Positions 1,625 to 19,897 of a stretch of DNA of 64,000 bases are shown here, one piece after another. Position 1 is the stretch's first letter, and each line of letters starts with the position of its first letter. A program made the translations under genes and the position numbers. The DNA comes from Algibacter amylolyticus (GTDB lineage: Bacteria; Bacteroidota; Bacteroidia; Flavobacteriales; Flavobacteriaceae), in contig NZ_JACHGE010000002.1 of NCBI RefSeq assembly GCF_014202225.1, positions 552,636 to 616,635 on the forward strand. The letters run 5' to 3'. The notes below the pieces were generated by a model that was given only the letters and a program-made list of their open reading frames with translations, searched no databases and was not told the DNA's origin.

Positions 1625-1649
1625 ATCATTTTCTAATTAAGATATATTC

Positions 1650-1684
1650 AAAAAAGGTTTCGCATATTTTGCGAAACCTTTTTT
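1650..1684 (+). terminator. Rho-independent terminator after the binding lipoprotein
   Basis: A perfect 15-bp stem, AAAAAAGGTTTCGCA pairing with TGCGAAACCTTTTTT, closes a 5-base loop (1665-1669) and ends in a T tract. It lies 26 bases after the stop at 1624 and separates the glycan-binding gene from the sulfatase operon. Confidence 0.9.
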
Positions 1685-1780
1685 ATGTTAACATAAACCA
1701 TAATTTATCGTAATAAAAACATATGTGATATTACTTGTTTGTATATATATGGATATTTACATGATTAAAAAAACTAAAAA

Positions 1781-3463: not shown

Positions 3464-3473
3464 ATAAAAAGGT

Positions 3474-5093
3474 ATGAAGTATTTTTTTAACGTAATTTTA
3501 GTTGCTTTGCTATGTTTTTCAATTAATAGTTTTAGTCAATTAAAAAAGGAAAACTATAAAACGAATAAAACATACCAAATTCCTAAATGGGAAGTATTAG
3601 ATATTTCTTTTACAAATAATGTTGATGTAAAATCACCATATACAGCTAAATTTAAGGCCGTTTTCACTCACGAAAACGGTTTTATTCAAGAAGTGCCAGG
3701 TTTTTATAATGGCAATAACGAATGGATTATACGCTTTTCGAGTAGTTTAGAAGGGCAATGGAGATTTGAAACCAAAGCAGATGCTAATAAATTAGCGGGT
3801 AAAAAAGGAAAAGTAACAGTTACAGAAGCTAAAGAAAACAATCATGGTGCTGTAACTGTTAATAAAGAAGATCCTCAGCATTTTTATTATGAAGATGGAA
3901 CACCGTATTTTTTATTAGCTTTTGAATGTGATTGGTTATACGCTTTAGATTATCATAATGATAAGAATCTTCCAAAAACAGAACATTTACTGAATTTAAT
4001 AGAAGAAAGCGGATTCAATCAAGTTGTAATGAATGTGTTTTCGTACGATGTAAGTTGGAAGAAAGATGAAAAATTAAAAGACCATCCAGAGCATGAATTT
4101 GGAGGGCCTAAAAATATATTTCCTTTTCTTGGTAATAATGAAAAACCTGATTATTCGGCTTTAAACCCAGAGTTTTTTCAAAAATTAGATCGTACCATTA
4201 GCTTAATGCACGATAAAAGAATAGTATCTCATTTAATGATTTATGTATGGAACAAACTCGTTGCGTGGCCAGACATGAACACGGAAGCAGATAACATGTA
4301 TTTCGATTATGTTGTTAAAAGGTATCAAGCGTTTCCAAACGTAATATGGGATATCTCTAAAGAGGCCTTGTTTTATGGTAGGGCAGATGAGGCCTATATT
4401 CATGGTAGAATAGAACGTGTTAGAGCTAACGATGAGTTTAATAGATTGTTATCTGTACACGATTTTAAATACTGTTCAAGATTCCCTGAAAAGGTAGATT
4501 TTATTTCAACACAAAATTGGGTTCATGATATTTATAATAAAATGCTCGATGCCAGAAATAAGTTTAAGGATAAACCAGTTTTTAATATAGAACACGGAGG
4601 GTATGAAGAGTCTCCGTATAAAGTGTTTACCGGCGATTATACCAATGCGGAAATTTGTTTAAGGCGTAATTATATGTGCTTATTTGCCGGAGTATATACC
4701 ACTTACTATTGGCAAGGCGCATCATGGAACGTTATTATTTATAACCCGTTTGAGCAACCAGAAAATTTTATTAAACCAAAATTTGAATATTTCGAGCATA
4801 TGCAAAAACTGTTTACGCTATTCAATTTTAGTAAAATGAAACCAACACCATGGAAAAATGGAAGCGCTTATAATTTAACCGATGATAACGAAACTGTTTT
4901 GCTCTATATCCATAAAGAAAACTATGGAATTGATGCGGCGTTTTTAAGAAAGGATCATAACAATAGAACGGTTCAGTGGTTTAATACCTTAACGGGAGAA
5001 TTTAGTGATATTGAAGCGGTTTCTAAAAATGGAAAATTTATATCTCCTTGGCAAGGAGAGGCAGATACTATAATAATTTCAAGGCTTAAGTAG
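3474..5093 (+). CDS. DUF5060/DUF4038-type putative glycoside hydrolase
   Basis: A 539-residue secreted protein with a signal peptide ending near FSQ22. Residues about 35-120 match the DUF5060 beta-sandwich (WEVLDISF, then GQWRFETKADANKLAGKKG). The rest looks like the TIM-barrel domain called DUF4038 or apiosidase-like (YFLLAFECDWLYAL, then NQVVMNVFSYDVSW). Two glutamates are placed as in clan GH-A: E297 in VIWDISKEA (acid/base) and E373 in FNIEHGG (nucleophile). That reading is mine and untested. A sulfatase lies 10 bases upstream, so it probably acts on a desulfated oligosaccharide in the periplasm. The sugar specificity is unknown. Confidence 0.65.
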   Translation: MKYFFNVILVALLCFSINSFSQLKKENYKTNKTYQIPKWEVLDISFTNNVDVKSPYTAKFKAVFTHENGFIQEVPGFYNGNNEWIIRFSSSLEGQWRFETKADANKLAGKKGKVTVTEAKENNHGAVTVNKEDPQHFYYEDGTPYFLLAFECDWLYALDYHNDKNLPKTEHLLNLIEESGFNQVVMNVFSYDVSWKKDEKLKDHPEHEFGGPKNIFPFLGNNEKPDYSALNPEFFQKLDRTISLMHDKRIVSHLMIYVWNKLVAWPDMNTEADNMYFDYVVKRYQAFPNVIWDISKEALFYGRADEAYIHGRIERVRANDEFNRLLSVHDFKYCSRFPEKVDFISTQNWVHDIYNKMLDARNKFKDKPVFNIEHGGYEESPYKVFTGDYTNAEICLRRNYMCLFAGVYTTYYWQGASWNVIIYNPFEQPENFIKPKFEYFEHMQKLFTLFNFSKMKPTPWKNGSAYNLTDDNETVLLYIHKENYGIDAAFLRKDHNNRTVQWFNTLTGEFSDIEAVSKNGKFISPWQGEADTIIISRLK

Positions 5094-5221
5094 CCAATAG
5101 TGAGTGTTTTAAACATTTGCTCTAGTATAAAAGACATACGTTTTGTTGCTTTTAACTTGATAATCAGAACTTCGTTAAATAATTTTAAAAAAACCGAAAA
5201 CCAATTAACAATTTAGTAAAT

Positions 5222-6769
5222 ATGAATTTTAGAATATATAAGTTGTTCACCTATTTGTTATGTTCGATAGTTATTTTATCATGTAACAACGACAAAAAAA
5301 ACAGCAAAGAAGTTGTACAAACCCAAAAACCAGTTTTTGAGGCAAATTGGGAATCGATAAAAGCCAATTATAAAGACCCAGAATGGTTTAATCAAAAAAA
5401 ATTCGGAATTTTTATTCACTGGGGAGCGTATAGCGTGCCTGCATACGGTTCAGAATGGTATCCAAGACAAATGTATATGGATACGGCTAACTTTAATGCG
5501 CAGTTAAATACAGGCCGAAAAGGACCTTCTAAAGAGTATTTACATCACAAAAAAGAATGGGGAGATCAAAAAGATTTCGGTTATAAGGATTTCATTCCTA
5601 TGTTTAAAGGAGAAAAATTTGATGCCAACCAATGGATCGATTTATTTAAAGAAGCTGGTGCAAAATATGTAATACCAGTTGCAGATCATCACGATGGTTT
5701 TGCCATGTACAAATCGAACACTACAAGATGGAATGCTTACGATATGGGACCTAAACGTGATGTTTTAGGTGAGCTTTTTAAAGCAGGAAGAAGTAAAGAC
5801 ATGATTATGGGAGCATCTTCTCACTTTGCGTTTAACTGGTCTTTCTACAATAAAAAAGATCATTTTGATACTACAGATCCTGAATATGCAGATTTATATT
5901 CTTCAAAAGGAAAAGATCTAAAAGAACCGGTTTCAGAAGAGTTTAAAGCACGTTGGTGGGACAGAACAAAAGATCTTATCGATAACTATCAACCAGATAT
6001 TTTATGGTTTGATTTTTACTTAGATATTCCAGATTATGCAGACCAAAGGCCAAAATTAGCAGCTTACTATTATAATAAAGGGATTGAGTGGGGTAAAGAA
6101 GTGGTTTTACAAGATAAAAACTTCTCACACGAGGCATTTCCAGAAGGCACAGTTATTTACGATTTAGAACGAGGTAAATTACCAGGTATTAGAAAGTTAC
6201 CTTGGCAAACAGATACGTCTATAGGAAAGAATTCTTGGAGTCATGTTACCAATTGGAAATCTAAAACGGCAAATGAAATAGTTGACGATTTAGTAGATAT
6301 AGTAAGTAAAAACGGAAATTTATTATTGAATGTTGGTCCTAAAGCTGATGGTACTATTCCAGAGGATCAAAAAGAAATTTTACTTCAAATTGGTGGTTGG
6401 TTAAAAACAAATGGAGAAGCTATTTATGATACTAAATATTGGAAAACATTTGGAGAAGGCCCTACGGAAGTTAAAAAAGGACACCATTCTGAAGGTAATA
6501 ATGAAGGCTTATCTTCTAAAGATATAAGATTTACAACTAAAGGAAATAAGTTATATGCTATTGTGCTAGATTGGCCAGAAGATGGTAGAGTTAATATTAC
6601 AACTTTAGCTAAACATGCAGAATATGCCAAAGATTTAAATATTTCTAATATAGAGGTTTTAGGAAGCTCCGAAAAAATTGAATGGACACAAAACGATAAA
6701 GGTTTATTGGTAAACATGCCAAAAGAAAAGCCAACTGATTTTGCATATGTAATTGCACTTTCGTTTTAA
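5222..6769 (+). CDS. GH29 alpha-L-fucosidase/alpha-L-galactosidase family lipoprotein
   Basis: A 515-residue GH29 enzyme with lipobox ILSC (Cys21). Family landmarks are FGIFIHWGAYSVPAYGSEWY at the start of the barrel, VADHHDGFAMYKS with the substrate-binding HH pair, and D264 in ILWFDFY as the expected nucleophile. The retaining reaction removes terminal alpha-L-fucose. Some GH29 members from porphyran-degrading bacteria instead remove alpha-L-galactose, which is plausible here because agar-type galactans contain L-galactose. A C-terminal beta-sandwich follows the barrel. The gene is 128 bases after the DUF5060 gene, with a terminator just downstream, so it closes this operon or is transcribed alone. 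Confidence 0.88.
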   Translation: MNFRIYKLFTYLLCSIVILSCNNDKKNSKEVVQTQKPVFEANWESIKANYKDPEWFNQKKFGIFIHWGAYSVPAYGSEWYPRQMYMDTANFNAQLNTGRKGPSKEYLHHKKEWGDQKDFGYKDFIPMFKGEKFDANQWIDLFKEAGAKYVIPVADHHDGFAMYKSNTTRWNAYDMGPKRDVLGELFKAGRSKDMIMGASSHFAFNWSFYNKKDHFDTTDPEYADLYSSKGKDLKEPVSEEFKARWWDRTKDLIDNYQPDILWFDFYLDIPDYADQRPKLAAYYYNKGIEWGKEVVLQDKNFSHEAFPEGTVIYDLERGKLPGIRKLPWQTDTSIGKNSWSHVTNWKSKTANEIVDDLVDIVSKNGNLLLNVGPKADGTIPEDQKEILLQIGGWLKTNGEAIYDTKYWKTFGEGPTEVKKGHHSEGNNEGLSSKDIRFTTKGNKLYAIVLDWPEDGRVNITTLAKHAEYAKDLNISNIEVLGSSEKIEWTQNDKGLLVNMPKEKPTDFAYVIALSF

Positions 6770-7088
6770 GAATATTTGTTTTCACTAGTAGTTAGTTTTA
6801 AAAAGTGTATTTATTAATTTAAATGCGCTTTTTTGTTGTTGTAATCAATGCAAATGCAATTTATCAATACGTACAAGATTGTTTTTGTATGATATTGTTT
6901 CCGTTACAACGAAGCTTTAAACATCGTTTTTACACATTCAGGCGGCTTGATAAAATATGGATTAACGTACAATAATTCATCCGTTATACTTTTTGGAACA
7001 TACGTACTCCACTTAAAATAGTTCAGTTACTACATTTGAGAGTATAATTATTTAAAATTAAATTAACAAAATAGACTTCAGTGTGTTT
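6770..7088 (+). promoter_or_regulatory. 319-bp intergenic region with a candidate promoter before GH3
   Basis: Besides the terminator at 6800-6833, it holds TACATTTG at 7031-7038, which fits the Bacteroidetes -7 consensus TAnnTTTG. No good -33 TTTG is seen at the usual spacing. Three related words lie upstream: ATACGTAC at 6867-6874, TAACGTAC at 6963-6970 and ATACGTAC at 7000-7007. They may be binding sites for an unknown regulator. No gene is seen. Confidence 0.4.
6800..6833 (+). terminator. Terminator after GH29
   Basis: A 13-bp stem (6800-6812 with 6821-6833), including two G-U pairs, closes an 8-base loop, and its T-rich 3' arm continues to 6834. It starts 30 bases after the GH29 stop. 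Confidence 0.7.
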
Positions 7089-9461
7089 ATGAAACAAAAC
7101 CAAAATATTATAAAATCTATTTGTTTAATACTCGTATTTTTTAATCTATCCGTAATTCAATCTCAAGAAAACAAACCGTTTCTAACAGAAGAATTGAGTA
7201 TTAAAGTCGATGCATTAATGGCAACCATGTCTATGGACGAAAAATTAGCGCAAATAACGGGTACGCGCCTAAGAGATATTATGGTAGATGGAAAAGTTTC
7301 CATTGAAAAATGTAGAGAACATATTCCTTATGGTATTGGTCATTTTTGTCAATTTTCTTCAGGTTTAACATTGGAGCCAGAACAATTAAGAGATTTAGTT
7401 AGAGAAGTACAGCATTATTTAATGACGGAAACCAATACTAAAATTCCAGCCATTTTTCATGAAGAAGCTATAACAGGTTTTGCAACTCAAGGAGCAACAA
7501 CGTTTCCACAGCAAATAGGAGTTGGATGTTCTTGGAATCCTGAAATTGTAAAAAACAATGCGAATTCTACTGCGCAAAGCATGCGTGCTGCGGGAGCAAC
7601 ATTTGCGTTATCACCTATGTTAGATTTAAGTCGTACTGCACATTGGAATAGACTTGAAGAAAGTTACGGAGAAGATGCCTATTTAACTTCTAGAATGGGT
7701 GTTGCATTTATAAAAGGATTGCAGGGCAATGATTTAAAAACAGGTGTAGCAGCTACGGCTAAACATTTTGCTGGTTACGGAACGGCTAATGATAATGCTA
7801 AAGAATTATATGAGGAATATTTAATGCCTCACGAAGCGGCTTTTAAAGTTGCAGGAGCTAAAAGTGTTATGCCTTCTTATGGAAAATATAAAGCATTAGC
7901 TGTTTCAGCAAATCCAACAATGTTAGACCAAATGCTGCGTAAAGAAATTGGGTTTGATGGACTTGTTGTAAGCGATTATGGTGCGGTTAATTTAATATAC
8001 AAAGGGCATAAACAAGCTAAAAATTCTGCTATGGCAGGAGCTATGGCCATAAACGCTGGTGTAGATATAGAGCTATCTTCACCAATTGCTTTTCCCTTAT
8101 TACCAGATGCTATAAAAGATGGGTTAGTTACAGAAGAAACTATAAATAAGGCGGTTAAGCGATCATTAGTAATGAAAGCAAAGTTGGGCTTACTAGATAA
8201 AAACCTTAAAATAGGTAAGGATGGTCCGTTAGATTTTGATCCACCTTCTAATCGAGAATTGGCATATAAAACAGCATCACAATCTATTGTTTTATTAAAA
8301 AATAATGGTGTTCTACCTTTAAATAGTGATATCAAAAAGATAGCCTTGGTAGGGCCCAATGCATCAACATATCATTGCTTGTTAGGTGATTATACGTATC
8401 AGTCTATGATTTCTTTTTGGCATAGTACAGATTTTGATCCCACAAACCCAAAGTTAATTACATTGCTGCAAGGTCTTGAAAATAAGTTAGGAGAAAATGT
8501 AGAAATCAATGTAGAAAGAGGATGTGATTGGAGTGCGCCTTTAGAATCTAAAATAGATACGAGTGGTTTAGGAGATGATAGGTTGAGTAAATTAAAAATG
8601 CTAACGGTAAAAGGGTTGCTACAACCAGATTTACAGAAGGCAATAAAAATCTCTGAAGAAAGCGATGTTATTATTGCTGCTGTAGGTGAAAACTTGTATT
8701 TGTGTGGCGAAGGTAGAGAACGAAAAGGCATTCGATTACCTGGGGAGCAAGAAGCATTTGTCGAAAAATTAATAGCAACAGGTAAGCCGGTTATATTGGT
8801 TCTGTTTGGAGGTCGTCAACAATTAGTAAGTAAGTTTGAAGATAAATGTGCCGCTATTGTTCAAGCTTGGTTTCCTGGTGAAGAAGGCGGAAATGCTATA
8901 GCAGATATATTGGTTGGTAATGTAAATCCATCTGCCAAATTATGCGTAACCTATCCTAAAACAGAATCGCGTGCAGAAATTAATTATAAAAATGGATATG
9001 GTAATGGTGATTTGGTTCAATACCCTTTTGGTTTTGGTTTGTCTTATACCGATTATCAATACTCTAATTTGAAAATTAAATCGAAAATAGATATTAATGA
9101 CGAACGTTTTTCGGTGTCATTAAAGGTGAAAAATATAGGTGATATGGACGGTACTGAAATTGTTCAACTATATATGTCTTCAATTGATAAAGCATCAACT
9201 CAAAAACCTATTCAGTTAAAAGGATTTGAAAGAGTAAAGCTAAAAGCAGGAGAAGAGAAAACATTAACCTTTAATGTTTCTCCCGAACAATTTGTGCAAT
9301 ATAAAAACAATAAATGGATTGTAGAATCGGGTAAATATCAACTTAAAGTCGGAGCATCTTCCACAGATATTCGGTTAGAAGGTGTTATTGAACTTAAAGG
9401 AAAAGATGTGATTCTAGAAAATGGTAGAGACGTATTTTTTACAATGAATAAAACTAAATAA
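7089..9461 (+). CDS. GH3 family exo-beta-glycosidase
   Basis: A 790-residue GH3 enzyme; I prefer the ATG at 7089 over the in-frame GTG at 7083 because it gives a cleaner signal peptide. The barrel domain has AATAKHFAGYG with the K-H substrate-binding pair, and FDGLVVSDYG with the expected nucleophile Asp296. A second alpha/beta domain follows (SIVLLKNNGVLPL, then GENLYLCGEGRER, a candidate acid/base region), and a C-terminal Fn3-like domain closes the protein (GTEIVQLYMSS). GH3 enzymes cleave terminal beta-linked sugars such as glucose or xylose; activity on an algal galactoside is possible but not shown. It overlaps no gene and stops one base before the next sulfatase, so it leads the 7089-16380 operon. 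Confidence 0.9.
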   Translation: MKQNQNIIKSICLILVFFNLSVIQSQENKPFLTEELSIKVDALMATMSMDEKLAQITGTRLRDIMVDGKVSIEKCREHIPYGIGHFCQFSSGLTLEPEQLRDLVREVQHYLMTETNTKIPAIFHEEAITGFATQGATTFPQQIGVGCSWNPEIVKNNANSTAQSMRAAGATFALSPMLDLSRTAHWNRLEESYGEDAYLTSRMGVAFIKGLQGNDLKTGVAATAKHFAGYGTANDNAKELYEEYLMPHEAAFKVAGAKSVMPSYGKYKALAVSANPTMLDQMLRKEIGFDGLVVSDYGAVNLIYKGHKQAKNSAMAGAMAINAGVDIELSSPIAFPLLPDAIKDGLVTEETINKAVKRSLVMKAKLGLLDKNLKIGKDGPLDFDPPSNRELAYKTASQSIVLLKNNGVLPLNSDIKKIALVGPNASTYHCLLGDYTYQSMISFWHSTDFDPTNPKLITLLQGLENKLGENVEINVERGCDWSAPLESKIDTSGLGDDRLSKLKMLTVKGLLQPDLQKAIKISEESDVIIAAVGENLYLCGEGRERKGIRLPGEQEAFVEKLIATGKPVILVLFGGRQQLVSKFEDKCAAIVQAWFPGEEGGNAIADILVGNVNPSAKLCVTYPKTESRAEINYKNGYGNGDLVQYPFGFGLSYTDYQYSNLKIKSKIDINDERFSVSLKVKNIGDMDGTEIVQLYMSSIDKASTQKPIQLKGFERVKLKAGEEKTLTFNVSPEQFVQYKNNKWIVESGKYQLKVGASSTDIRLEGVIELKGKDVILENGRDVFFTMNKTK

Positions 9462-9462
9462 A

Positions 9463-10869
9463 ATGAAACAATTCAAGATTTTAAAATTAGTATTAGGTGC
9501 TTTTTTAATAAGCTGTTCAATATTAAATGTATCTGCACAGAAGAAAAATATTATTTTTCTTTTCGCAGATGATGCTGGGTATCACGATTTTGGTTTCCAA
9601 GGAAGTAAAACGTTTCCAACTCCAAACTTAGATAACTTAGCCTCTGAAGGTATGGTTTTTAATGAAGCCTACACTACAGATTCGGTTTGCGGACCATCTA
9701 GAGCCGGATTGTTAACCGGAATGTATCAACAGCGTTATGGTATTGAAGAAAATAATGTACCTGGATACATGAGTGATTCTTCTAAATTATTAGGTGACGA
9801 AATGGGCTTGCCTTTAGGGATTAATACGGTTGCAGATTATTTGAATCCATTAGGATACAAGTCGATTGTTTTAGGGAAATGGCATTTAGGTAATGCTGAT
9901 AGATATCACCCATTAAATAGAGGTTTTGATGAGTTTTATGGTTTTAGAGGTGGTGCTAGAAGTTTCTGGCCGTTAAGCTTAAAAGCAGCTTTAGATCGCC
10001 CTGAAGATAGAATGGAAAAGGGATTTGGTTTGTTTGAAGAACCAAAAAAATATTTAACAGATGCCATTGCCGATGAGGCTTGCGATTTTATGGAACGCCA
10101 TAAGGAAGATCCATTTTTTATGTATGTTTCTTTTAATGCAGTTCATTCTCCGTTGGAAGCCACCGATGAAGATTTGGCGAAAATAAAAGGTTTAACAGGA
10201 AAGCGTAAAAAGCTTGCAGCAATGACCTTGGCTCTAGATCGTGCTTGTGGTACCATTCTTAAAAAATTGAAAGCACTTGGTTTGGAAGAAAATACACTTA
10301 TTGTTTTTTCTAATGATAATGGAGGTCCAGACGGAACCGAAACATCTAATCATCCACTTAGTGGTTGTAAATCTAATTTCTTAGAAGGCGGAATACGCGT
10401 GCCTTTTATTATGAAATTACCAGGAGTAATCAAACCAAAAACAGAATACAAAAAGGCGATTAGCATGTTAGATATGGTGCCAACATTTGTAAATATTGCA
10501 GGTGGTAATGCATCCGAATTAAAAGGATTAGATGGTGTAGATTTAATGCCTTTTATCACCAAGAAAAATAATAACGCACCGCACGAAAGGTTATTTTGGA
10601 AAATTGAAAATAGGGGCGTAGTACGCGAAGGTGATTGGAAACTATTGCGTTACCCAGATCGTCCGGCAGAGCTATATAACATAGCCGAAGATATTACTGA
10701 AAATAATGATTTAGCTTTAAAACACCCAAAAAAGGTGCGTGAAATGTATAAAACATTGTTTAATTGGGAAGCTGAATTAGAACGTCCTTTATGGCAATTA
10801 AAACGCATTTACGAGGTTAATGCCGTAAAACGTATTGATGAAAAAAGAAACCCAGTATTAGATAAATAA
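9463..10869 (+). CDS. S1 formylglycine sulfatase
   Basis: A 468-residue S1 sulfatase with activation motif C76-G-P-S-R80 and metal ligands D36-D37 in FADDAGYHDFG. LGKWHLG and the late FSNDNGGPDGT are typical of the family, and the opening resembles arylsulfatase A-type members. The N-terminus is ambiguous: LISC (Cys18) could be a lipobox, while VSAQ at 23-26 could be a signal peptidase I site. It starts one base after the GH3 stop, so the two are surely co-transcribed and probably translationally coupled. Its glycan target is unknown. Confidence 0.9.
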   Translation: MKQFKILKLVLGAFLISCSILNVSAQKKNIIFLFADDAGYHDFGFQGSKTFPTPNLDNLASEGMVFNEAYTTDSVCGPSRAGLLTGMYQQRYGIEENNVPGYMSDSSKLLGDEMGLPLGINTVADYLNPLGYKSIVLGKWHLGNADRYHPLNRGFDEFYGFRGGARSFWPLSLKAALDRPEDRMEKGFGLFEEPKKYLTDAIADEACDFMERHKEDPFFMYVSFNAVHSPLEATDEDLAKIKGLTGKRKKLAAMTLALDRACGTILKKLKALGLEENTLIVFSNDNGGPDGTETSNHPLSGCKSNFLEGGIRVPFIMKLPGVIKPKTEYKKAISMLDMVPTFVNIAGGNASELKGLDGVDLMPFITKKNNNAPHERLFWKIENRGVVREGDWKLLRYPDRPAELYNIAEDITENNDLALKHPKKVREMYKTLFNWEAELERPLWQLKRIYEVNAVKRIDEKRNPVLDK

Positions 10870-10904
10870 AACTTGATTTGGTAAAAGAGAAATTCAATTT
10901 AATT

Positions 10905-12416
10905 ATGAAAAAGAACACACTATTTGTTTATTGCTATATCGTTTTTACAACGTTTGTCTTTGCTCAAGAAAAACCTAATGTTATTGTTGTTTTAGCCGAT
11001 GATATTGGACTTGGAGATATTTCATATTATCGAGGAAAACATTCTAAAAATATTATTCTTGAAACACCAAATATAGATAAACTTGCAAAAGAAGGTATGG
11101 CTTTTACAGATGCGCATACACCAGCAGCATTGTGTGCACCAACGCGCTATGCAATAATGTCTGGAAATCATTGTTACAGAAGTTATGCCCCTTGGGGTGT
11201 TTGGGGTGCTTATAGGCCTTCGCCAATAGAACCAAATCAACTTACTTTAGGCAAACTCATGAAAAATGCTGGATACCAAACTTCTTTCTTTGGGAAATGG
11301 GGATTCGGGATGGATTTTGCAAGAAAAGATAACCCGAATGTCGTGTATGATTCGCCTCGTATTGAGCATGAATTGGATGTCGATATTTCTAAAGTGATAG
11401 ATAAAGGTCCTGTTCAAAATGGATTTGATTATAGTTTTATGTATCCTGCAGGAATACAAGCAGAGCCTTATGCTGTGTACGAAAATGGCGTGATGATGCC
11501 TTTAAATAAAGACTCAGAAATCGTGTTAATCACCCAAGAAAAAATGAGTAAGCTTAATGTTAAACTTGATAAAAAAGAAGGCTTAGGCGATAGCTATTGG
11601 AACCCTTATAATTCAGGGAAATTATTAATAGATAAGGCGGTAGGTTTTATTGAAAATGCTTCAGACGAAGATCCTTTCTTTATGTATTATTGCTCACAGG
11701 CTGTGCATTTACCGCACACACCTTCTGAAAAAATGAATGGTACCAAAATAGCAGGCACAACACCTTCTAGTCATTTAGATATGGTGAAAGAATTAGATGT
11801 ACAAATGGAAATGCTTGTTGATGCCTTGAAAAAGAAAGGTGTTTATGATAATACGTTAATCATCTTTACATCAGACAATGGTGGTTTATTAAAACCAAAA
11901 ACCATCAAATCGGGACATCAATCGAACGATATTTATAGAGGAGGTAAAAATCAAATGTACGAGGGTGGACATAGAGTTCCATTTATCGCTTGGTGGCCAA
12001 GTCAAATTAAAGCAAATACAGTTTCGAATGCTCCAATTTTAGGAATAGATATTATGGCAACTTTAGCCGATATCACAAATCAAAAAATAGAAGGAAATAA
12101 CGCTATGGATTCTTCAAGTTTGTTACCGCTTTTAAAAGGTGAAAACAAACAAGTTCATCCGTTTCTTATAACGCAATCGGGTACCGGTAAACAAACCATT
12201 ATTATAAAAGATGGTTGGAAATTAATTATTCAGCTTGATAAAAAGGACAAAACCGATCGTAATAGAATGCCATTCGCGTTGTTTAATTTAAGTAAAAACC
12301 CTACAGAAAATGAAAAGGACAACCTCATTAAAAACCCGAAATTTAAGAATAAAGTAAATGAGTTGTTTCAATTATACAATGAGACTAGGGATAGCGGGGT
12401 AATTACAAGAGCGTAA
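10905..12416 (+). CDS. S1 formylglycine sulfatase with CAPTR motif
   Basis: A 503-residue S1 sulfatase. I place the start at the ATG at 10905, which gives a clean signal peptide ending in FVFAQ; an in-frame TTG at 10878 would add nine implausible residues. The activation motif is C77-A-P-T-R81, with Thr in place of the commoner Ser, which the C-x-P-x-R rule allows. Metal ligands D32-D33 lie in LADDIGLGDIS, and FTSDNGG is the late metal-binding loop. The neighbouring sulfatase ends 35 bases upstream. Two different sulfatases in a row suggest removal of sulfate from different positions (inference). Confidence 0.9.
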   Translation: MKKNTLFVYCYIVFTTFVFAQEKPNVIVVLADDIGLGDISYYRGKHSKNIILETPNIDKLAKEGMAFTDAHTPAALCAPTRYAIMSGNHCYRSYAPWGVWGAYRPSPIEPNQLTLGKLMKNAGYQTSFFGKWGFGMDFARKDNPNVVYDSPRIEHELDVDISKVIDKGPVQNGFDYSFMYPAGIQAEPYAVYENGVMMPLNKDSEIVLITQEKMSKLNVKLDKKEGLGDSYWNPYNSGKLLIDKAVGFIENASDEDPFFMYYCSQAVHLPHTPSEKMNGTKIAGTTPSSHLDMVKELDVQMEMLVDALKKKGVYDNTLIIFTSDNGGLLKPKTIKSGHQSNDIYRGGKNQMYEGGHRVPFIAWWPSQIKANTVSNAPILGIDIMATLADITNQKIEGNNAMDSSSLLPLLKGENKQVHPFLITQSGTGKQTIIIKDGWKLIIQLDKKDKTDRNRMPFALFNLSKNPTENEKDNLIKNPKFKNKVNELFQLYNETRDSGVITRA

Positions 12417-12450
12417 TAATTTGAATAAATAGGAATAAAACTTATTTGAA

Positions 12451-13860
12451 ATGAGAGAATTTTTTAATTACAAATGGATGTTTTTTTTAGTGTTAATTGT
12501 CATAGGGATTAATGCAAATAATAGCTATTCTCAGTCAAACAATGAGGGCTGGAAAATGTTATTCAACGGTAAAAATCTAGATGGTTGGAAACAACTTAAC
12601 GGAAAAGCAGAATACAAAGTAATAAATAACGAGATTGTTGGAATCTCTACTTTAAAAACTCCAAATAGCTTTTTATGTAGTGTTGAAGAATATTCAGATT
12701 TTATTTTAGAATTTGAAGTAATTGTTGACCCAGTAGTAAATTCTGGTGTACAATTTAGATCTAAAAGTTTAGCTGAATATAATAACGGAAGAGTGCATGG
12801 CTATCAATTTGAATTAGACCCCAGTGAAAGAGCATTTAGTGGAGGGGTTTTTGAAGAAGGAAAACGTGGTTGGCTATATCCGTTATCTTTAAATGAAAAA
12901 GGTAGAAAAGCTTATAAAAATGGAATCTGGAATACTTGCAGAATTGAGGCTATTGGTAATACAATAAAAACATGGATTAATGGAGTGCAATGTGCAAATC
13001 TGGTTGATGATGATGCTGCCTCTGGCTTTATAGCATTGCAAGTACACAGTATTGGCGGCAATAAAAGCAAAGACGGAAAACAAATAAAATGGCGAAATAT
13101 TAAAATTAAAACCAACAATTTAAAAAAGGAGAGTTGGAGCCAAGACCCTCAGGTTGTCGAGCAAAGTTATTTGGTAAATACAATTACAGAAAACGAATCA
13201 CGGTTAGGGTGGCGATTACTTTGGGATGGTAAAACAAATAAAGGTTGGCGAGGTGCTAAGCGCATCGATTTCCCTAAAACCGGTTGGGAAATTAAAGAGG
13301 GTGTTTTAAGTGTTCTTGCTACAGATGGAGCGGAGTCAACAGGTCCCGGAGATATTATTACAGAAGATCTATTTAGTAGTTTTGAATTAGAATTGGAGTT
13401 TAGAATTACTGAAGGTGCAAATAGCGGAATTAAGTATTTTGTAAATCCAGAACTTAATAAAGGTAAAGGATCTGCCATTGGTTGCGAGTTTCAAATTCTA
13501 GATGATAAAAATCATCCTGATGCTAAGGCGGGCGTTAATGGTAATAGAACCGTTGGTTCTCTGTATGATTTGATAACTGCTGAAGGATTAACAATTGCAG
13601 GTAGAAAAAAAGTTTTTAAAGGTGTTGGCAATTGGAACAAAGCTAGAATTGTAGTTAAAGATGGTAAGGTAGAACATTGGTTAAATAATGAAAAAGTTAT
13701 AGAATACGATAGATTCTCCCAAATGTTTAAAGCACTTGTGGCATACAGCAAGTACAAAAACTGGGAAAATTTTGGACAATGGTCAGCGGGACATATTTTG
13801 TTGCAAGACCACGGAAATACAGTAAACTTCAGAAGTATTAAAATAAGAGAGTTCAATTAA
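12451..13860 (+). CDS. Tandem DUF1080 (3-keto-disaccharide hydrolase-type) protein
   Basis: A 469-residue exported protein with a signal peptide (through SYSQ) and two DUF1080 domains: about 30-205 (GWKMLFNGKNLDGWKQL, then SGVQFRSKS, YQFELDPS) and about 255-468 (GWRLLWDGKTNKGWRG, then SGIKYFV, CEFQILDD). DUF1080 is a concanavalin-like fold named 3-keto-disaccharide hydrolase in Pfam; characterised members act on glycosides already oxidised at C3. The next two genes encode Gfo/Idh/MocA oxidoreductases of the type that makes such 3-keto sugars, which supports this role. Two domains in one chain could provide two specificities or one catalytic and one binding unit. The actual substrate is unknown. 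Confidence 0.75.
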   Translation: MREFFNYKWMFFLVLIVIGINANNSYSQSNNEGWKMLFNGKNLDGWKQLNGKAEYKVINNEIVGISTLKTPNSFLCSVEEYSDFILEFEVIVDPVVNSGVQFRSKSLAEYNNGRVHGYQFELDPSERAFSGGVFEEGKRGWLYPLSLNEKGRKAYKNGIWNTCRIEAIGNTIKTWINGVQCANLVDDDAASGFIALQVHSIGGNKSKDGKQIKWRNIKIKTNNLKKESWSQDPQVVEQSYLVNTITENESRLGWRLLWDGKTNKGWRGAKRIDFPKTGWEIKEGVLSVLATDGAESTGPGDIITEDLFSSFELELEFRITEGANSGIKYFVNPELNKGKGSAIGCEFQILDDKNHPDAKAGVNGNRTVGSLYDLITAEGLTIAGRKKVFKGVGNWNKARIVVKDGKVEHWLNNEKVIEYDRFSQMFKALVAYSKYKNWENFGQWSAGHILLQDHGNTVNFRSIKIREFN

Positions 13861-13874
13861 ATTAAATCAATAAT

Positions 13875-15194
13875 ATGGAATCGTCTAGACGAAAATTTAT
13901 AAAGCAAACGGCTATGGGAACAATGGGGACTCTTATTGTTCCTCAGTTAAGTTTTGGTAAAAATATATTTAATGCAAACGAAACTATAAATGTTGCTGTT
14001 ATTGGTGTAAGAAGTAGAGCCAAATCTTTAACTCAAGCTATACATAAATATGAGTATGCTAAAATTATATATACATGCGACGTTGATGATGACGTAATTG
14101 ATGAACACAACATTTTTTTACAAAAGAATATTGGTTACGTGCCTAAAGTAGAAAAAGACTTTAGGAAAATTTTAGATGATAAAGATGTAGATGCTGTATT
14201 TATTGCCACACCAGAGCATTGGCATGCTCCAATGGCAATTATGGCATTACAAGCAGGTAAACATGTTTATGTTGAAAAACCATGTAGCCATAATCCTCAT
14301 GAAAATGAATTATTAGTTGCTGCCCAAAGGAAATATAAAAAAATAGTTCAAATGGGTAACCAACAGCGTTCTGCTCAATCTAGTGCATTAGCTGTTAAAG
14401 AGATAAAAGAAGGTGTTATTGGTAACGTATACAAAGGCGAAGCCTATTATTCTGCGAATAGAGGTTCTATAGGGACTGGTAAATTAGTTGATGTTCCTAA
14501 AACTCTCAATTGGGATTTATGGCAAGGACCAGCACCAAGGGAAGCTTTTAGAGATAATGTACATCCTTATAATTGGCATTGGTTTAAATCTTGGGGAACT
14601 GGTGAAATCCATAATAATGGAACACATGAGATTGATATATGTCGTTGGGCATTAGGTGTCGATCTTCCAAATAAAGTAACTTCCTTTGGAGGGAAATATA
14701 CATTTGATGATGATTGGCAATTTCCAGACAATCAAGAAGTAACTTACCAATATGATGATAAATTAATTACATGGACAGGACATAGCAGAGGTAAAATTCA
14801 ACCTAGTCAACCAGGTCGTGGAGCATCAATTTACGGTAGCAAAGGTGTTATAACATTAAGTAGAAATAATTATAAATTGTTTGGTTTAGACGGGGAATTA
14901 ATAAAAACTGTTGATGAAAAAGTTAAAAGTGAAACTACTAATACCGTTGGTGGTGGTGGTTTGGATGTCACACATATTGCTAACTTTTTTAATGCCATTC
15001 GTTTAGGGGAGAAACTAAATGCTCCTATCGAAGATGCAAGTATAAGCACCATGATGTGCCATTTGGGTAACATTGCGCAAGATGTAGGTGAAACTATTAA
15101 CATCGATCCCAAAACAGGCAAAATAGAAGGTAATAAAAGAGCCATGAAAAATTGGAAAAGGGATTATGAAAAAGGATGGGAACCAAAATTATAG
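13875..15194 (+). CDS. Tat-exported Gfo/Idh/MocA oxidoreductase
   Basis: A 439-residue NAD(P)-dependent sugar oxidoreductase. The N-terminus has a textbook Tat motif, SRRKFIK at residues 4-10, so it should be exported already folded with its cofactor. The Rossmann segment starts at INVAVIGVRSRAKSL. VYVEKPCS carries the family Lys of the EKP motif, and NNGTHEIDICRW matches the catalytic His/Asp region. Members oxidise or reduce a sugar hydroxyl, and several exported ones make 3-keto-glycosides. It starts 14 bases after the tandem DUF1080 gene and ends 4 bases before a second oxidoreductase, so the three form one unit. Direction and substrate are inferred. Confidence 0.85.
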   Translation: MESSRRKFIKQTAMGTMGTLIVPQLSFGKNIFNANETINVAVIGVRSRAKSLTQAIHKYEYAKIIYTCDVDDDVIDEHNIFLQKNIGYVPKVEKDFRKILDDKDVDAVFIATPEHWHAPMAIMALQAGKHVYVEKPCSHNPHENELLVAAQRKYKKIVQMGNQQRSAQSSALAVKEIKEGVIGNVYKGEAYYSANRGSIGTGKLVDVPKTLNWDLWQGPAPREAFRDNVHPYNWHWFKSWGTGEIHNNGTHEIDICRWALGVDLPNKVTSFGGKYTFDDDWQFPDNQEVTYQYDDKLITWTGHSRGKIQPSQPGRGASIYGSKGVITLSRNNYKLFGLDGELIKTVDEKVKSETTNTVGGGGLDVTHIANFFNAIRLGEKLNAPIEDASISTMMCHLGNIAQDVGETINIDPKTGKIEGNKRAMKNWKRDYEKGWEPKL

Positions 15195-15198
15195 GTAA

Positions 15199-16380
15199 AT
15201 GAATAGAAGAAAGTTTATACATCAAGGAGGTTTAGTTTCCTTGGGTCTTTTAGCAGGGACATCGACTCTTAAAGCTTTTCAGTTTAATGGTTTTTCTAAA
15301 GAAACTATTAATATTGGAGTTATTGGAACGGGAGGGAGAGGTATTGGTCAAACATCATTAATCAATAAAATAGAAAACCTTGAGGTAGTTGCTGTTTGCG
15401 ATATTCTTCCTTTTAGGTTAAAAGAAGGACTTAAAGCCACTAAAAATACAGCAAAAGCTTATACAAAATACAATGATTTAATAAATGATAAAAATGTTGA
15501 TGCCGTTTTAATTGCCACACCATTTAGTGAGCACTACAAAATGGCTATGGATGCGTTGAATGCTGATAAACATGTTTATTGTGAAAAAACTATGGCAAAA
15601 GGGTTGGTAGAATCGGAAAACCTTGTGTCTAAAGTATCAACAACCAATTTAATTTTTCAAGCCGGACATCAATATCATAGTTCAAGATTATATACTCACG
15701 TTGTTGGTATGTTGAAAGAAGATGTAATCGGCAATATAAAATCTTTTGAATGCCGATGGTATAGAAAAGGTGACTGGAGAAAACCAATACCAGAAACAAA
15801 ATATGAAAAAAACGTAAATTGGAGAATGTACAGAGAATTTTCAGGTGGTTTAACGGCTGAATTAAGTTCGCATCAAATAGATTTTGTGAATTGGGTATTA
15901 GATGAAAACCCAAAGAAAATAATGGGAACAGGTGGCGTTAATTTTTGGAATGATGGAAGAGAAACATTTGATAATACGCATCTTATTTTTGAATATCCTA
16001 GTGGGGTAAAAGCCCAATTTAAGTGTCTTACAAGTAATATTCCTGGAGGCTATCAGATAAAAGTAATCGGAGATAAAGGTGTTATTACACTTACTACAAA
16101 TAAAGCTTGGATAAATTATTATAAGAAACCAGAAAAAGTAAATTATGCCGATGTTGATGGTGTATCAGGTGCCACTGTTCCAAAAGATTATAATGATGAA
16201 AAGGGAACACCAATTAATGTGGTGCATTCAAATCCAAGTGAGCAAGCATTAATAGATTTTAAAGAATCTATTTTTAATAATAAACAGCCTATTTCTAATG
16301 TAGAAACGGGAGCTAATACTGCAAAGGCAGTACAATTGGCTATAGATGCTATGTTAACAGGGAAAGTACAGTATTGGTAG
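15199..16380 (+). CDS. Second Tat-exported Gfo/Idh/MocA oxidoreductase
   Basis: A 393-residue paralogue with Tat motif NRRKFIHQ at residues 2-9 and the hydrophobic stretch LVSLGLLAG. The dinucleotide-binding loop is GVIGTGGRGIGQ. The usual EKP is EKT here (HVYCEKTMAKG). AELSSHQIDFVNWVL is the expected catalytic His/Asp helix. It differs clearly from its neighbour, so the pair may act on different sugars or may oxidise and then reduce the same one around the hydrolase step. A 105-base gap separates it from the cytochrome peroxidase gene. Confidence 0.85.
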   Translation: MNRRKFIHQGGLVSLGLLAGTSTLKAFQFNGFSKETINIGVIGTGGRGIGQTSLINKIENLEVVAVCDILPFRLKEGLKATKNTAKAYTKYNDLINDKNVDAVLIATPFSEHYKMAMDALNADKHVYCEKTMAKGLVESENLVSKVSTTNLIFQAGHQYHSSRLYTHVVGMLKEDVIGNIKSFECRWYRKGDWRKPIPETKYEKNVNWRMYREFSGGLTAELSSHQIDFVNWVLDENPKKIMGTGGVNFWNDGRETFDNTHLIFEYPSGVKAQFKCLTSNIPGGYQIKVIGDKGVITLTTNKAWINYYKKPEKVNYADVDGVSGATVPKDYNDEKGTPINVVHSNPSEQALIDFKESIFNNKQPISNVETGANTAKAVQLAIDAMLTGKVQYW

Positions 16381-16485
16381 TTGATTTTAAAATTCAATTC
16401 AATTTATACTAGTAATTTTTCTGCTTGTATTTTTATGGATTCAGTGTTGAACTACTTTTAAAGTAACAATTTAATTTAAGTATTA

Positions 16486-17655
16486 ATGAAACGCCATATT
16501 AACATTTATCTTATCTTTTTGATTGTTTTTAGTGGTTGTAACAATTCAACTAAAAAAAACATAAAGGAGCTCATAGAACCTGATAATGATGGTTATATCC
16601 CCTTGCCTGAAAATGTTTTAGAACCTCGAGATAATATTTCTAATCCCGATAAAGTTAAATTAGGTAAATTGCTTTTTTACGATCCTATTTTATCTGGAAA
16701 TAAAGATGTGTCGTGTGCTACGTGCCATCATCCTGAATTTGGCTTTGCAGAACCTTTAGATCTTTCTATCGGTGCAAATGGTAAAGGTTTAGGTTTTACA
16801 AGGAAATTTAACGAGCCTAACCACATTCCTTTTGTAAAAAGAAATGCGCATACTATTTTAAATACGGCATTTAATGGAATAGATCTTCAAGGTATATATA
16901 GTTCAAATGACGCACCGATGTTTTGGGATAATAGAGCGGAAGGATTGGAGGCGCAAGCATTATTACCTATAGAAACATTAGAAGAAATGCGGGGTGATAA
17001 GATTTCTGAGCATGATATATTGAATGTTGTTGTAGCGCGATTAAAAGAAATTCCAGAATATGTTACTTTATTCGAAAAGGCATTTAAGAGTAATAATGCT
17101 ATTGATAAAGTTAATTTAGGGAAAGCTATTGCGGCGTTTGAAAGAACGTTAATTACACCAAATTCAAGGTTTGATAAGTATGTTCAAGGTGATGAAAACG
17201 CTTTGTCTATGGCTGAAAAAGATGGTTTCGAATTATTTAAAGCAACCAAATGCAATTTATGCCATAACGGGCCTATGTTTTCTGATTATAAAACTCATAT
17301 TTTAGGTGTTGTAGATAATGAGAAATTACTGTTCTCCGATGGTGGAGTAGATAGTACCTACGCTTTTAGAACACCAAGTTTAAGAAATTTGAGATATACA
17401 GCGCCTTACATGCACAATGGTAAATTAAAAGATTTACAGGCCGTTTTAGAGTTTTATGAGGATATTTCTAACGGACCTTCTAAAAACAATCATGTTCCAA
17501 CAAAACATATCGATTCTTTAGCTAAGCAAGTCAATATAAAGGTTATGGACATGAGCTTAATTATTTCATTTTTGAATAGTTTAAATTCCGAAGATTTTGA
17601 TAAAGACATACCAGAACAAGTTCCAAGTGGACTTCCGGTAGGAGGTGATATATAA
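16486..17655 (+). CDS. Di-heme cytochrome c peroxidase (MauG/CCP family) lipoprotein
   Basis: A 389-residue lipoprotein (lipobox FSGC, Cys18) with two c-type heme sites: C77-A-T-C80-H81 and C256-N-L-C259-H260. Family landmarks are LGKLLFYDPILSGNKDVSC, AFERTLITPNSRFDKY and FRTPSLRNLRYTAPYMHNG. Such proteins reduce peroxide with electrons from small cytochromes, or perform MauG-like oxidations. They work in the periplasm, where the Tat-exported oxidoreductases just upstream should also be. Co-location suggests an electron-transfer or peroxide-removal link with them, but nothing in the sequence proves it. It ends the plus-strand cluster and faces a convergent gene. Confidence 0.88.
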   Translation: MKRHINIYLIFLIVFSGCNNSTKKNIKELIEPDNDGYIPLPENVLEPRDNISNPDKVKLGKLLFYDPILSGNKDVSCATCHHPEFGFAEPLDLSIGANGKGLGFTRKFNEPNHIPFVKRNAHTILNTAFNGIDLQGIYSSNDAPMFWDNRAEGLEAQALLPIETLEEMRGDKISEHDILNVVVARLKEIPEYVTLFEKAFKSNNAIDKVNLGKAIAAFERTLITPNSRFDKYVQGDENALSMAEKDGFELFKATKCNLCHNGPMFSDYKTHILGVVDNEKLLFSDGGVDSTYAFRTPSLRNLRYTAPYMHNGKLKDLQAVLEFYEDISNGPSKNNHVPTKHIDSLAKQVNIKVMDMSLIISFLNSLNSEDFDKDIPEQVPSGLPVGGDI

Positions 17656-17696
17656 GATGTTTATCGTTTTCTTATTGTTGAAATATCATTTAAAAC

Positions 17697-17720
17697 TAGG
17701 GTTACCATTTAGCAACCCTA
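17697..17720. terminator. Hairpin between convergent genes
   Basis: TAGGGTT (17697-17703) pairs with AACCCTA (17714-17720) across a 10-base loop, between the peroxidase stop at 17655 and the convergent beta-helix stop at 17738. The stem is short and has no long T run, so it is only a moderate terminator candidate. Confidence 0.45.
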
Positions 17721-17737
17721 ATTGTAAACTTTATCAT

Positions 17738-19897
17738 TTATTTCTTTATAAACTTAGAATTAAATGAAGCACCATCTCTAGATTTTACTCTAATAATATA
17801 TGTTCCGGTAACTAAATTTTCTATAGGCATTACAAATGTTGAATTATTTAAGTTTCCTTTTACCTCAGTACTTTTAACAAGAGCTCCAAGCAGCGAATAA
17901 ACGTCTATGGAACCAGTTGTAAAGTTATTTGGTAATATGATGTTTAAGTTATCACGAACCGGATTAGGAAATAATTCTAGTTTCAATAATTCGTTATCGG
18001 TTGTGCTTAAAGCTTCGCCAGTGTCTTCTATGGCATTTACGCCAGCAGTCCATTGTGTACCTAATCTTTCATAAGCGCCAATATCTGGAGCAGTTCCTTT
18101 ATAAGTTGTTGTAAAACTAGATATAAACCTTCCTGCGTCTAATACTGAGCTTCCAGCAGCAGGCATAAAGTTTTGGTTGTTTGCATCTTCAAAAGGCGAA
18201 GTATTTGTTATTATATTATCCTGAATATCGAAATCTGTAGCAGTTTCAGTAAACCAATTACCAGTGTTTGCAAAATTATTATAAATCTTATTATTTTCTT
18301 GAGTGTAACCATTTACCCAGGAGTCCATGGCGCGTTCTGCATTCCAAATAGTATTATGATAAAAGTCTAAATTTGTATTATTCCAATTTACTTGATATCC
18401 ACTCCAAGATACATTCCAAATAACATTGTGATGAACCGAGTAACCTTTACTATTATTATCTAAATAGATTCCTGCCGCTTTACCTGGATCGTTTGGATTA
18501 TGTGAATAAGATGGCGCAGTAGCATCATGAAACCAATTATGATGGATTTCATTATTCTTTAAAGACGCATTTCCAACGGTATAAAATACACCAGAATCAC
18601 TATTTATTTTTTGTGAAGCAGAAACGTCGTTATAGCCAATTTCGCAATTAGAACCAGATACATACATTCCGTCTCTACCTGCATTGGTTATGGTGTTTTT
18701 TAATATTTTCATATCGTTACCACTCGCTCTTAATGGAGAAGCGTGAATGCCAATGTAGTCTATATTGCTAATGTAATTGCCTTCAATAGTACAATTTGAG
18801 GCAGCCCAACCCGCTATAACAATACCACTTACAGAACTATGGTTTACAGTACAGCCTTTTATTAAGGTATTATCTCCAAGAACTTCAAGTGCTGCTTCAC
18901 CAACTTGAGCAGATGTATTTGTTAAACTATCATGACCTTCACTACCGTGAATTATAGAACAATTTAGAATTTGGTTATTGTCTGCATTATTATGAATTTT
19001 TACACTCCCTCCAAAAAAGTTTAAACCTTCTAGCTTAATGTAATCGCCTTTTAATTCTGCGGCAAATTTAGATGCAGCATATTCAACGCTACCATTGGCA
19101 GGCATAGTTCCATCTGCAGTTTGAAGATAAAGTGTATTAGTTGTCTGGTCATAAAACCATTCGTTAGCATAATCTAGAGCTTCCAATTTATTAAATAAGT
19201 ATAATTGTCCTCTATTATTTCCTGGGTTATTTCTCCAAACGGTTGGATTATGTGGTGTAAAAGGCCATTTTGTAATATCAACCTCAGTATAGTCTATTCT
19301 ACTGGTTGTGCTAGCAGTTATTGTCCGTGTCCAACTTGCTCCAGAATGCGCGCCTAGGTAATATACCATGCCACCAGTCCAATCAATATTAGGTAAATTA
19401 CTTGCTGTAAAATGAGATCCGTCTCCGCCTGTTACAGGTGTGCAATCTATAGTCCAACGGTTATTATCTGTATTATTTGGCCATCTTGCCAAATCCATAT
19501 ATTCATTGTTGTGATATACGGCTCTAAAGCGGCTTTCAATGGCCATATTTACTGTGGCTTTGTAAATGTTTCCGCTATGTGCTTGCCAACCATTTACTTT
19601 ATTGGTGGCTCTAATTTCAACATCTTCACCATCGGCAGCTTTAAAGGTTAAATAATTGCTAGAAGTTCCGTTTTTGTTGATTGTAAGTGCGTCTTCATAA
19701 ACACCACCTCTAATAATACAAACATCACCTGCAGACATAACAGATATCGCCTTATTGAAGGTTTTGTAGGGATTGCTTATAGTTCCGTTTCCTGATGTGT
19801 CGTTGCCATTTGTAGCAACATAAATATCATTAGCGAAACTTATAGTGCTCGATAATAAAAAAAAGAGATAGAAATAAGCTTGAGTAATTTTATGCAT
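17738..19897 (-). CDS. T9SS-secreted right-handed beta-helix protein (DUF1565 type)
   Basis: A 719-residue protein with a signal peptide ending in ISFA. DIYVATNGNDTSGNGTISNPYKTF is the DUF1565 opening that precedes many right-handed beta-helices. From about residue 290 to 560 there are many helix-coil repeats (NTLIKGCTVNHS, NCTIEGNYISNI, NCEIGYNDVS, YSVHHNVIWNVS). Residues about 635-719 are a type IX secretion sorting domain (LELFPNPVRDNLNI, ending FNSKFIKK), so it should be secreted or surface-bound. This fold is shared by polysaccharide lyases and several hydrolases; no catalytic residues can be named. The N-terminal 250 residues, rich in Trp, may be a separate module. Confidence 0.75.
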   Translation of the reverse strand: MHKITQAYFYLFFLLSSTISFANDIYVATNGNDTSGNGTISNPYKTFNKAISVMSAGDVCIIRGGVYEDALTINKNGTSSNYLTFKAADGEDVEIRATNKVNGWQAHSGNIYKATVNMAIESRFRAVYHNNEYMDLARWPNNTDNNRWTIDCTPVTGGDGSHFTASNLPNIDWTGGMVYYLGAHSGASWTRTITASTTSRIDYTEVDITKWPFTPHNPTVWRNNPGNNRGQLYLFNKLEALDYANEWFYDQTTNTLYLQTADGTMPANGSVEYAASKFAAELKGDYIKLEGLNFFGGSVKIHNNADNNQILNCSIIHGSEGHDSLTNTSAQVGEAALEVLGDNTLIKGCTVNHSSVSGIVIAGWAASNCTIEGNYISNIDYIGIHASPLRASGNDMKILKNTITNAGRDGMYVSGSNCEIGYNDVSASQKINSDSGVFYTVGNASLKNNEIHHNWFHDATAPSYSHNPNDPGKAAGIYLDNNSKGYSVHHNVIWNVSWSGYQVNWNNTNLDFYHNTIWNAERAMDSWVNGYTQENNKIYNNFANTGNWFTETATDFDIQDNIITNTSPFEDANNQNFMPAAGSSVLDAGRFISSFTTTYKGTAPDIGAYERLGTQWTAGVNAIEDTGEALSTTDNELLKLELFPNPVRDNLNIILPNNFTTGSIDVYSLLGALVKSTEVKGNLNNSTFVMPIENLVTGTYIIRVKSRDGASFNSKFIKK

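Follow-up and report, generated by a model that had tools for sequence, protein, structure and literature searches.

A 3-keto-glycoside pathway encoded by BT2156-BT2160 in Bacteroides and by the AL genes in Alistipes was reportedly described in Nature in 2024. In the available part of PMC11300592, BT2158 is given as a periplasmic glycoside 3-dehydrogenase, and in that of PMC9007349 DUF1080 proteins appear as (putative) 3-ketoglycoside hydrolases. The same part of PMC9007349 sets out a lactose route in Caulobacter, in which periplasmic 3-oxidation by the membrane-bound, three-part dehydrogenase LacABC is followed by the action of a putative DUF1080 hydrolase. The GlycDH-OGE-HYD-Gfo pathway of Agrobacterium tumefaciens divides oxidation, elimination, hydration and reduction among several enzymes: the oxidase is a flavoenzyme, the eliminase and hydratase are putative sugar phosphate isomerases and not DUF1080 proteins, and the final reductase, acting on 3-keto-glucose, is a Gfo enzyme (PMC10628242, available part). 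The present analysis concerns a block of four genes in a 64,000-nucleotide stretch of DNA, here called the window, from Algibacter amylolyticus (assembly GCF_014202225.1, contig NZ_JACHGE010000002.1, positions 552,636 to 616,635). It is probable, in our assessment, that the first three genes, or trio, constitute a self-contained exported module that cuts glycosides by a 3-keto route, and that the fourth, for a MauG-like di-heme protein, has been displaced from a neighbouring cytochrome operon.

A preliminary description, made from the DNA letters, had placed four genes on one strand here, and the coordinates of the open reading frames (ORFs) and their Pfam families agree with it. The block opens at 12451-13860 (+) with a gene for a 469-residue protein that has an N-terminal signal-like stretch and in which PF06439, the DUF1080 or 3-keto-disaccharide hydrolase family, is matched in two stretches (3.1e-82; 275.6 bits against a cut-off of 26.8). 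Over its whole length this tandem DUF1080 protein matches PDB entry 4jqt (567 bits). Its domain 2 matches 11 solved structures at 1e-20, among them 8tda, 8rr2 (named as a 3-keto-disaccharide hydrolase domain protein) and 9fbe, and domain 1 matches only 4jqt strongly, with 3hbk, 3u1x and 3imm matched weakly. In an alignment (A4) of the window protein with 35 of 40 listed homologues, rows with odd starts being mostly left out, 29 positions in domain 1 and 78 in domain 2 are kept in at least 97% of the 36 rows. Domain 1 is thus the diverged one and domain 2 the counterpart of the single-domain DUF1080 structures; because more of its positions are conserved, domain 2 is probably the active one.

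Fourteen bases further on, at 13875-15194 (+), lies the gene for Gfo1 (439 residues), and after another 4 bases, at 15199-16380 (+), that for Gfo2 (393 residues). Both score above the Pfam cut-offs for PF01408 and for the C-terminal domains of the Gfo/Idh/MocA superfamily. Residues R5, R6, K135 and H251 are invariant in 45 aligned rows of Gfo1 (alignment A2: 44 of 51 listed homologues plus the window), as are K130, E221 and H225 in 21 rows of Gfo2 (A3: 20 of 21 listed homologues plus the window), sequences with odd starts again being mostly excluded. K135 and H251 of Gfo1, and K130 and H225 of Gfo2, are presumably the catalytic EK lysine and the C-domain histidine of the superfamily. The twin-arginine translocation (Tat) signals claimed for both oxidoreductases are upheld: an RRxF motif is found in 45/45 rows of Gfo1 and 18/21 of Gfo2, [RK][RK]x[FL] in 21/21 of the latter, and TatC is encoded in the genome (8.2e-67). 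The AlphaFold2 model of Gfo1 has a mean predicted local distance difference test (pLDDT) score of 88.4, and by both sequence and fold its top match is 8tdf/8tdh, titled as the Alistipes glucoside-3-dehydrogenase AL3, from whose accession series 8tda also comes; Gfo1 is therefore labelled here glucoside-3-dehydrogenase-like.

Comparison with the Bacteroides/Alistipes route shows the same pairing of a DUF1080 protein with Gfo/Idh/MocA 3-dehydrogenases, and solved relatives exist for both kinds of trio gene; judged by titles and accession series, structures 8tda-8tdi would belong to that work. That route has a single DUF1080 domain whereas the window has a tandem, the window has two Tat-type Gfo proteins in tandem, and among the ORFs scanned there is no AP_endonuc_2 gene beside the trio. 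With the curated NCBIfam models both Gfo proteins stay below the cut-offs. BT_2158_fam (glycoside 3-dehydrogenase, cut-off 750 bits) gives 164.9 bits for Gfo1 and 87.1 for Gfo2, and BT_2159_fam (disaccharide 3-dehydrogenase, cut-off 650 bits) gives 33.7 and 32.9. Membership of Gfo1 or Gfo2 in either family is accordingly excluded, and it is because of these scores that the trio is best regarded, as far as sequence and fold comparison can tell, as a variant that would work like the Bacteroides/Alistipes route. It shares with the Caulobacter route the likely succession of periplasmic 3-oxidation and DUF1080 action, with Gfo/Idh/MocA dehydrogenases in place of LacABC, and with the Agrobacterium pathway the division of steps, including a Gfo enzyme.

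The matches of Gfo1 and of the DUF1080 protein, the invariant lysine and histidine residues, the twin arginines and the presence of TatC make oxidation, elimination/hydration and reduction the likely steps of the trio. After export by Tat in folded form, with the nicotinamide cofactor bound, Gfo1 would oxidise a terminal sugar at C3; eliminating the aglycone, now labile, and then adding water would fall to the tandem DUF1080 protein, probably to its domain 2; and Gfo1 itself, or else Gfo2, would return the hydride to the 3-keto sugar, making the cycle redox-neutral and independent of heme. We infer that a dehydrogenase exported in this way has to take its cofactor along, and that either its own product or Gfo2 resets it. 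The oxidise-then-cleave route of the preliminary description is sustained in so far as the unit is conserved and a glucoside-3-dehydrogenase heads the solved structures matched by Gfo1; the heme partner and the galactan substrate attached to it are not. The trio suggests a distinct version, exported and with a tandem DUF1080 protein, of the stepwise oxidative glycoside cleavage known from gut Bacteroidetes.

The trio recurs as a unit. Among 149 genomes of Flavobacteriaceae (homologues at E <= 1e-60), the tandem DUF1080 protein has a homologue in 42, Gfo1 in 41 and Gfo2 in 23. At 42 of the 49 places with a tandem DUF1080 gene, Gfo1 follows within 500 bases on the same strand (gaps of 4-218), the DUF1080 gene standing first in all 42; Gfo2 adjoins Gfo1 at 18 of its 23 places, and the full trio is present at 17. 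The A. amylolyticus genome itself contains three pairs of tandem DUF1080 and Gfo1. In a wider sample of 296 genomes from the phylum (E <= 1e-80), the tandem protein is encoded in 55. These counts substantiate the idea of a conserved exported module of DUF1080 with two Tat-type Gfo proteins. For the neighbourhood counts given below, loci of up to 20 kb were used (numbered L; genomes are numbered G). Of 62 Gfo1 places, five on small contigs (three in G037, one in G062 and one in G144:C8) were left out; there were 59 family loci (L040, L041, L085-L141), 51 with a Gfo1 of at least 40% identity, of which 41, including two from the A. amylolyticus genome, also have the tandem DUF1080 gene and are counted as family block loci. 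The 59 tandem DUF1080 places in the phylum sample yielded 40 phylum block loci, with 7 already covered and 12 left out; the DUF1080 gene is shown by the ORF caller in 39 of the 40, the exception being L230.

Two further features of these neighbourhoods may be recorded. Upstream of the paralogous DUF1080-Gfo pair of L040, on contig C2 of the A. amylolyticus genome, two ORFs separated by six bases (L040:5157-6491) match a major facilitator superfamily (MFS) transporter, which looks split. Glucuronate isomerase UxaC is encoded near tandem DUF1080 genes in L092, L094, L111, L121, L129, L141, L232, L234, L237, L261, L262 and L263; ten of these twelve loci also lie near the gene for mannonate dehydratase UxuA, and some near those for DctP, 2-keto-3-deoxygluconate (KDG) kinase or 2-keto-3-deoxy-6-phosphogluconate (KDPG) aldolase.

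The fourth gene of the block, at 16486-17655 (+), begins 105 bases after Gfo2 and encodes a protein of 389 residues that matches PF03150 (CCP_MauG, 1.4e-50). It had been described as a lipid-anchored di-heme peroxidase. The two CxxCH motifs (CATCH and CNLCH) and a lipobox-like stretch, LIVFSGC, read from the sequence, agree with the first part of that description, but a classic cytochrome c peroxidase is excluded: at the aligned position of MauG Tyr294, which is Met in the di-heme peroxidase 1iqc, the protein has a tyrosine, Y324. We take this position, Met in classic cytochrome c peroxidases, to mark the class. Y324 is invariant in 12/12 aligned di-heme orthologues (alignment A1, which omits a partial gene of G051), and the protein is predicted to be MauG-like. 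It shares with MauG and MbnH the tyrosine and the two CxxCH motifs, and differs from them in having a lipobox and a cytochrome-operon setting and in falling under the curated cut-offs, with 176.7 against 443.85 for TTQ_mauG (TIGR03791) and 172.2 against 362.85 for MbnH (TIGR04039).

The origin of this gene is indicated by a cluster lying 5' of the window, at C2:538471-545886 (L224:4972-12387), in which genes for a PSCyt1/PSCyt2/PSD1 protein, a DUF1501 protein, an NHL protein with a Tat signal and a DUF2231/PSCyt1 protein (DUF2231cyt) follow one another intact. In 11 of 80 di-heme loci, the best 80 of a scan of named genomes, the di-heme gene accompanies the same PSCyt/PSD1-DUF1501-NHL-DUF2231cyt genes. 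In the tree the window protein groups solely with eight of the operon members, in a clade with support 100/96, and in all eight the di-heme gene comes next after DUF2231cyt, at a distance of -1 to 25 bases; in the other three operon members the gap is 24, 102 and 277. In A. amylolyticus this adjacency is lacking, the di-heme gene starting 23,234 bp past DUF2231cyt. Between the two lies a polysaccharide utilisation locus (PUL) made up of GH29 (glycoside hydrolase family 29), SusC, SusD, the first genes of the window and lastly the trio. Gene order would thus place the di-heme gene beside Gfo2 because the PUL now splits the operon. Either insertion of the PUL between operon genes 4 and 5, or a rearrangement of the island, would have left it there, and the gene is probably the displaced 3' gene of the PSD1-DUF1501 operon and not a working part of the block. 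The tempting heme link is therefore probably wrong, and the di-heme gene is re-homed in a cytochrome operon found here mostly in marine Flavobacteriaceae. Planctomycete PSCyt/PSD clusters are alike in that PSCyt1-PSCyt2-PSD1 is followed by a gene of unknown family (here DUF1501) and in that PSCyt genes lie near sulfatases; they are unlike in that the A. amylolyticus genome continues with NHL and DUF2231-PSCyt1, and its relatives end with a MauG-like gene, of which the available part of PMC5615132 makes no mention. That part also reports PSCyt genes near sulfatases in freshwater Verrucomicrobia, with function unknown and a role in carbohydrate use suggested. None of the papers listed in a literature search links DUF1501 with MauG, or with a cytochrome c peroxidase in a polysaccharide locus.

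A working partnership of trio and di-heme protein, in which the trio would oxidise galactan-derived ends and the heme protein would take up electrons or shield from peroxide, had been the core of the preliminary description, and it now appears highly improbable. It had been expected that DUF1080, Tat-type Gfo/Idh/MocA and the peroxidase would recur together; the DUF1080-Gfo unit does, but no di-heme match lies near the block in any of 41 family or 40 phylum loci. A di-heme orthologue occurs in 13 of the 149 family genomes, and only one of them, the present genome, has it no more than 50 kb away from a block gene, the range being cut by contig ends in 7 of the 13 (G002, G006, G017, G018, G050, G051, G129). 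Close linkage is likewise seen in only 1 of the 80 di-heme loci, and the gene's own operon is known, so that gene order, tree and counts together led us to reject the di-heme protein as a partner of the block. Gfo enzymes, besides, use nicotinamide and not a heme acceptor. Several observations nevertheless weigh against the separation of trio and heme protein. The di-heme gene is on the strand of the trio, and co-transcription across the gap of 105 bases may still occur. LacC of LacABC is said to be a cytochrome. LacABC lactose 3-dehydrogenase works near DUF1080 in other bacteria, according to the available part of PMC9007349. In a Maribacter metagenome-assembled genome (L169:8945-13075) a di-heme gene lies 186 bases 5' of a tandem DUF1080-Gfo1 pair; this one other adjacency belongs to a separate clade of the di-heme tree. 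In three more di-heme loci (L167, L177, L217) the DUF1080 or Gfo relatives are all distant, at 23-33% identity and 3.6-7 kb away, and such a relative, at 27%, is encoded near the end of L046. A further PSCyt protein is encoded 4.4 kb from the paralogous pair of L040, with its DUF1552 neighbour at 3 kb, and in Tamlana sp. (G084), too, the PUL is bordered by the same cytochrome operon, di-heme gene included. Heme c proteins of other kinds are encoded near the block in L040, L111 and 10/40 phylum loci, and CxxCH proteins of other kinds in 2/41 family and 11/40 phylum block loci. Ten of the 19 CxxCH ORFs of the phylum loci were scanned with Pfam, the rest being homologues by length and N-terminus, and PF03150 was found in none of those scanned; they include cbb3 oxidase in five loci (L252 and others like it), a multiheme cytochrome, a DUF6797 cytochrome, plain cytochromes c and ORFs with no heme family in L234, L251 (690 residues) and L255 (516 residues). 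In L249 (11309-13465) a pyrroloquinoline quinone (PQQ)-type dehydrogenase with a heme c domain adjoins the tandem DUF1080 gene on the same strand, and heme-linked oxidation beside DUF1080 therefore occurs elsewhere, with another enzyme. A further proposal, that the PSCyt/PSD1-DUF1501-NHL-DUF2231cyt operon is itself a periplasmic oxidative system for algal glycans, the MauG-like enzyme of its last gene maturing or reoxidising a partner protein, and that a 3-keto PUL has been spliced into it in this genome, would mean that two oxidative saccharide routes, nicotinamide- and heme-based, are encoded as one locus; we regard it as speculative and improbable.

The substrate of the preferred heme-independent trio is likely to be the end, or a side group, of a sulfated glycan from algae, and sulfatase-like neighbours are found in 15/41 family block loci against 7/80 di-heme loci. 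Galactan, which the preliminary description had named, is not borne out and makes a weak reading. It is unproven because relatives of the block sit in hexuronate, rhamnosidase or other loci, or alone; there are also trios without the PUL and the PUL without a trio. The trios of G019, G061 and G134 (L086-L088) have a tandem DUF1080 protein 69-73% identical to that of the window and a Gfo2 about 62% identical, but a Gfo1 only 44% identical, and no further neighbour resembling a PUL gene of the window; one neighbour common to them is an aldehyde dehydrogenase. The remaining neighbours are presumably ilv and proline genes. Tamlana sp. (G084) conversely has much of the PUL, mostly at 56-81% identity, with no match to the tandem DUF1080 protein, Gfo1 or Gfo2 at 1e-60. 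Glucuronides are as likely as galactosides. A fuller version, in which Gfo1 is a glucuronide-3-dehydrogenase, DUF1080 frees glucuronate for hexuronate genes to consume, and the target in the window is a glucuronyl-like decoration of a red algal glycan, is possible, if somewhat short of an even prospect. Within about 10 kb, UxaC is encoded at 6/41 family and 6/40 phylum block loci and UxuA at 7/41 and 4/40, against 0/80 di-heme loci for each; the di-heme loci are a rough control, partly from other genomes than the block loci. Genes like those for alpha-L-rhamnosidase lie near 10/41 family block loci against 1/80 di-heme loci, but near 0/40 phylum block loci, and the glucuronide-3-dehydrogenase 8tdi stands at rank 41 among the fold matches of Gfo1 and likewise of Gfo2, whereas the first match of the window Gfo1 is the glucoside enzyme 8tdf; the window ORFs that were searched against Pfam include no uronate-pathway gene. 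The substrate class, uronides and algal glycans, is testable. Gfo2 may be an oxidase of another linkage, a 3-keto reductase or an NAD-dependent glycosidase. That it stands outside the 3-keto module altogether, as a stand-alone NAD-dependent glycosidase or dehydrogenase of the galactan PUL, is doubtful: in G017 (L131) a Gfo2 of 55% identity ends a PUL that is homologous, its GH2, GH16, GH43 and sulfatase being 43-79% identical, with no DUF1080 or Gfo1 within 10 kb, and the fold matches of the window Gfo2 include 3ezy, 3cea and the NAD-dependent glycoside hydrolase 8qc8 at ranks 1, 2 and 5, together with 8qc5 and 8qc6, but these ranks are closely spaced at 15-16% identity and, as noted above, Gfo2 mostly adjoins Gfo1.

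The sulfatase/GH locus seen around the block in the preliminary description is confirmed by the Pfam scan of the window ORFs. The PUL begins 5' of the window with GH29-SusC-SusD, and its part within the window (53-12416, +), ending in the trio, encodes a protein without a Pfam match, three sulfatases, a DUF5060/apiosidase protein, GH29 and GH3. After the di-heme gene, at 17738-19897 on the opposite strand (-), family profiles match a right-handed beta-helix protein with a sorting domain of the type IX secretion system (T9SS); in G084 its homologue, 81% identical, adjoins a sulfatase 81% identical to that at 10878-12416, the trio not being there. A scan of 12300-17900 for promoters and terminators gave results not above those of shuffled sequences (21 against 26.3, and 3 against 2.6). 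The window PUL has GH28 (twice), GH2, GH29, sulfatases, GH16 and SusCD in common with the Zobellia locus ZGAL_3628-3640, for which the available part of PMC5698469 mentions no DUF1080/Gfo trio and its authors favour a sulfated galactan other than carrageenan, for example sulfated agars. Near the window edge, at 63044-63754 (-), an ORF with only the C-terminal GH2 domains (DUF4982, Glyco_hydro2_C5) is a fragment or a cut gene. Two GH16 proteins, at 47444-48793 and 48834-50075, each show a pair of GH16 stretches and a match to an F5/8 type C domain, which in the second protein comes immediately before the final GH16 stretch, as though nested inside the catalytic domain.

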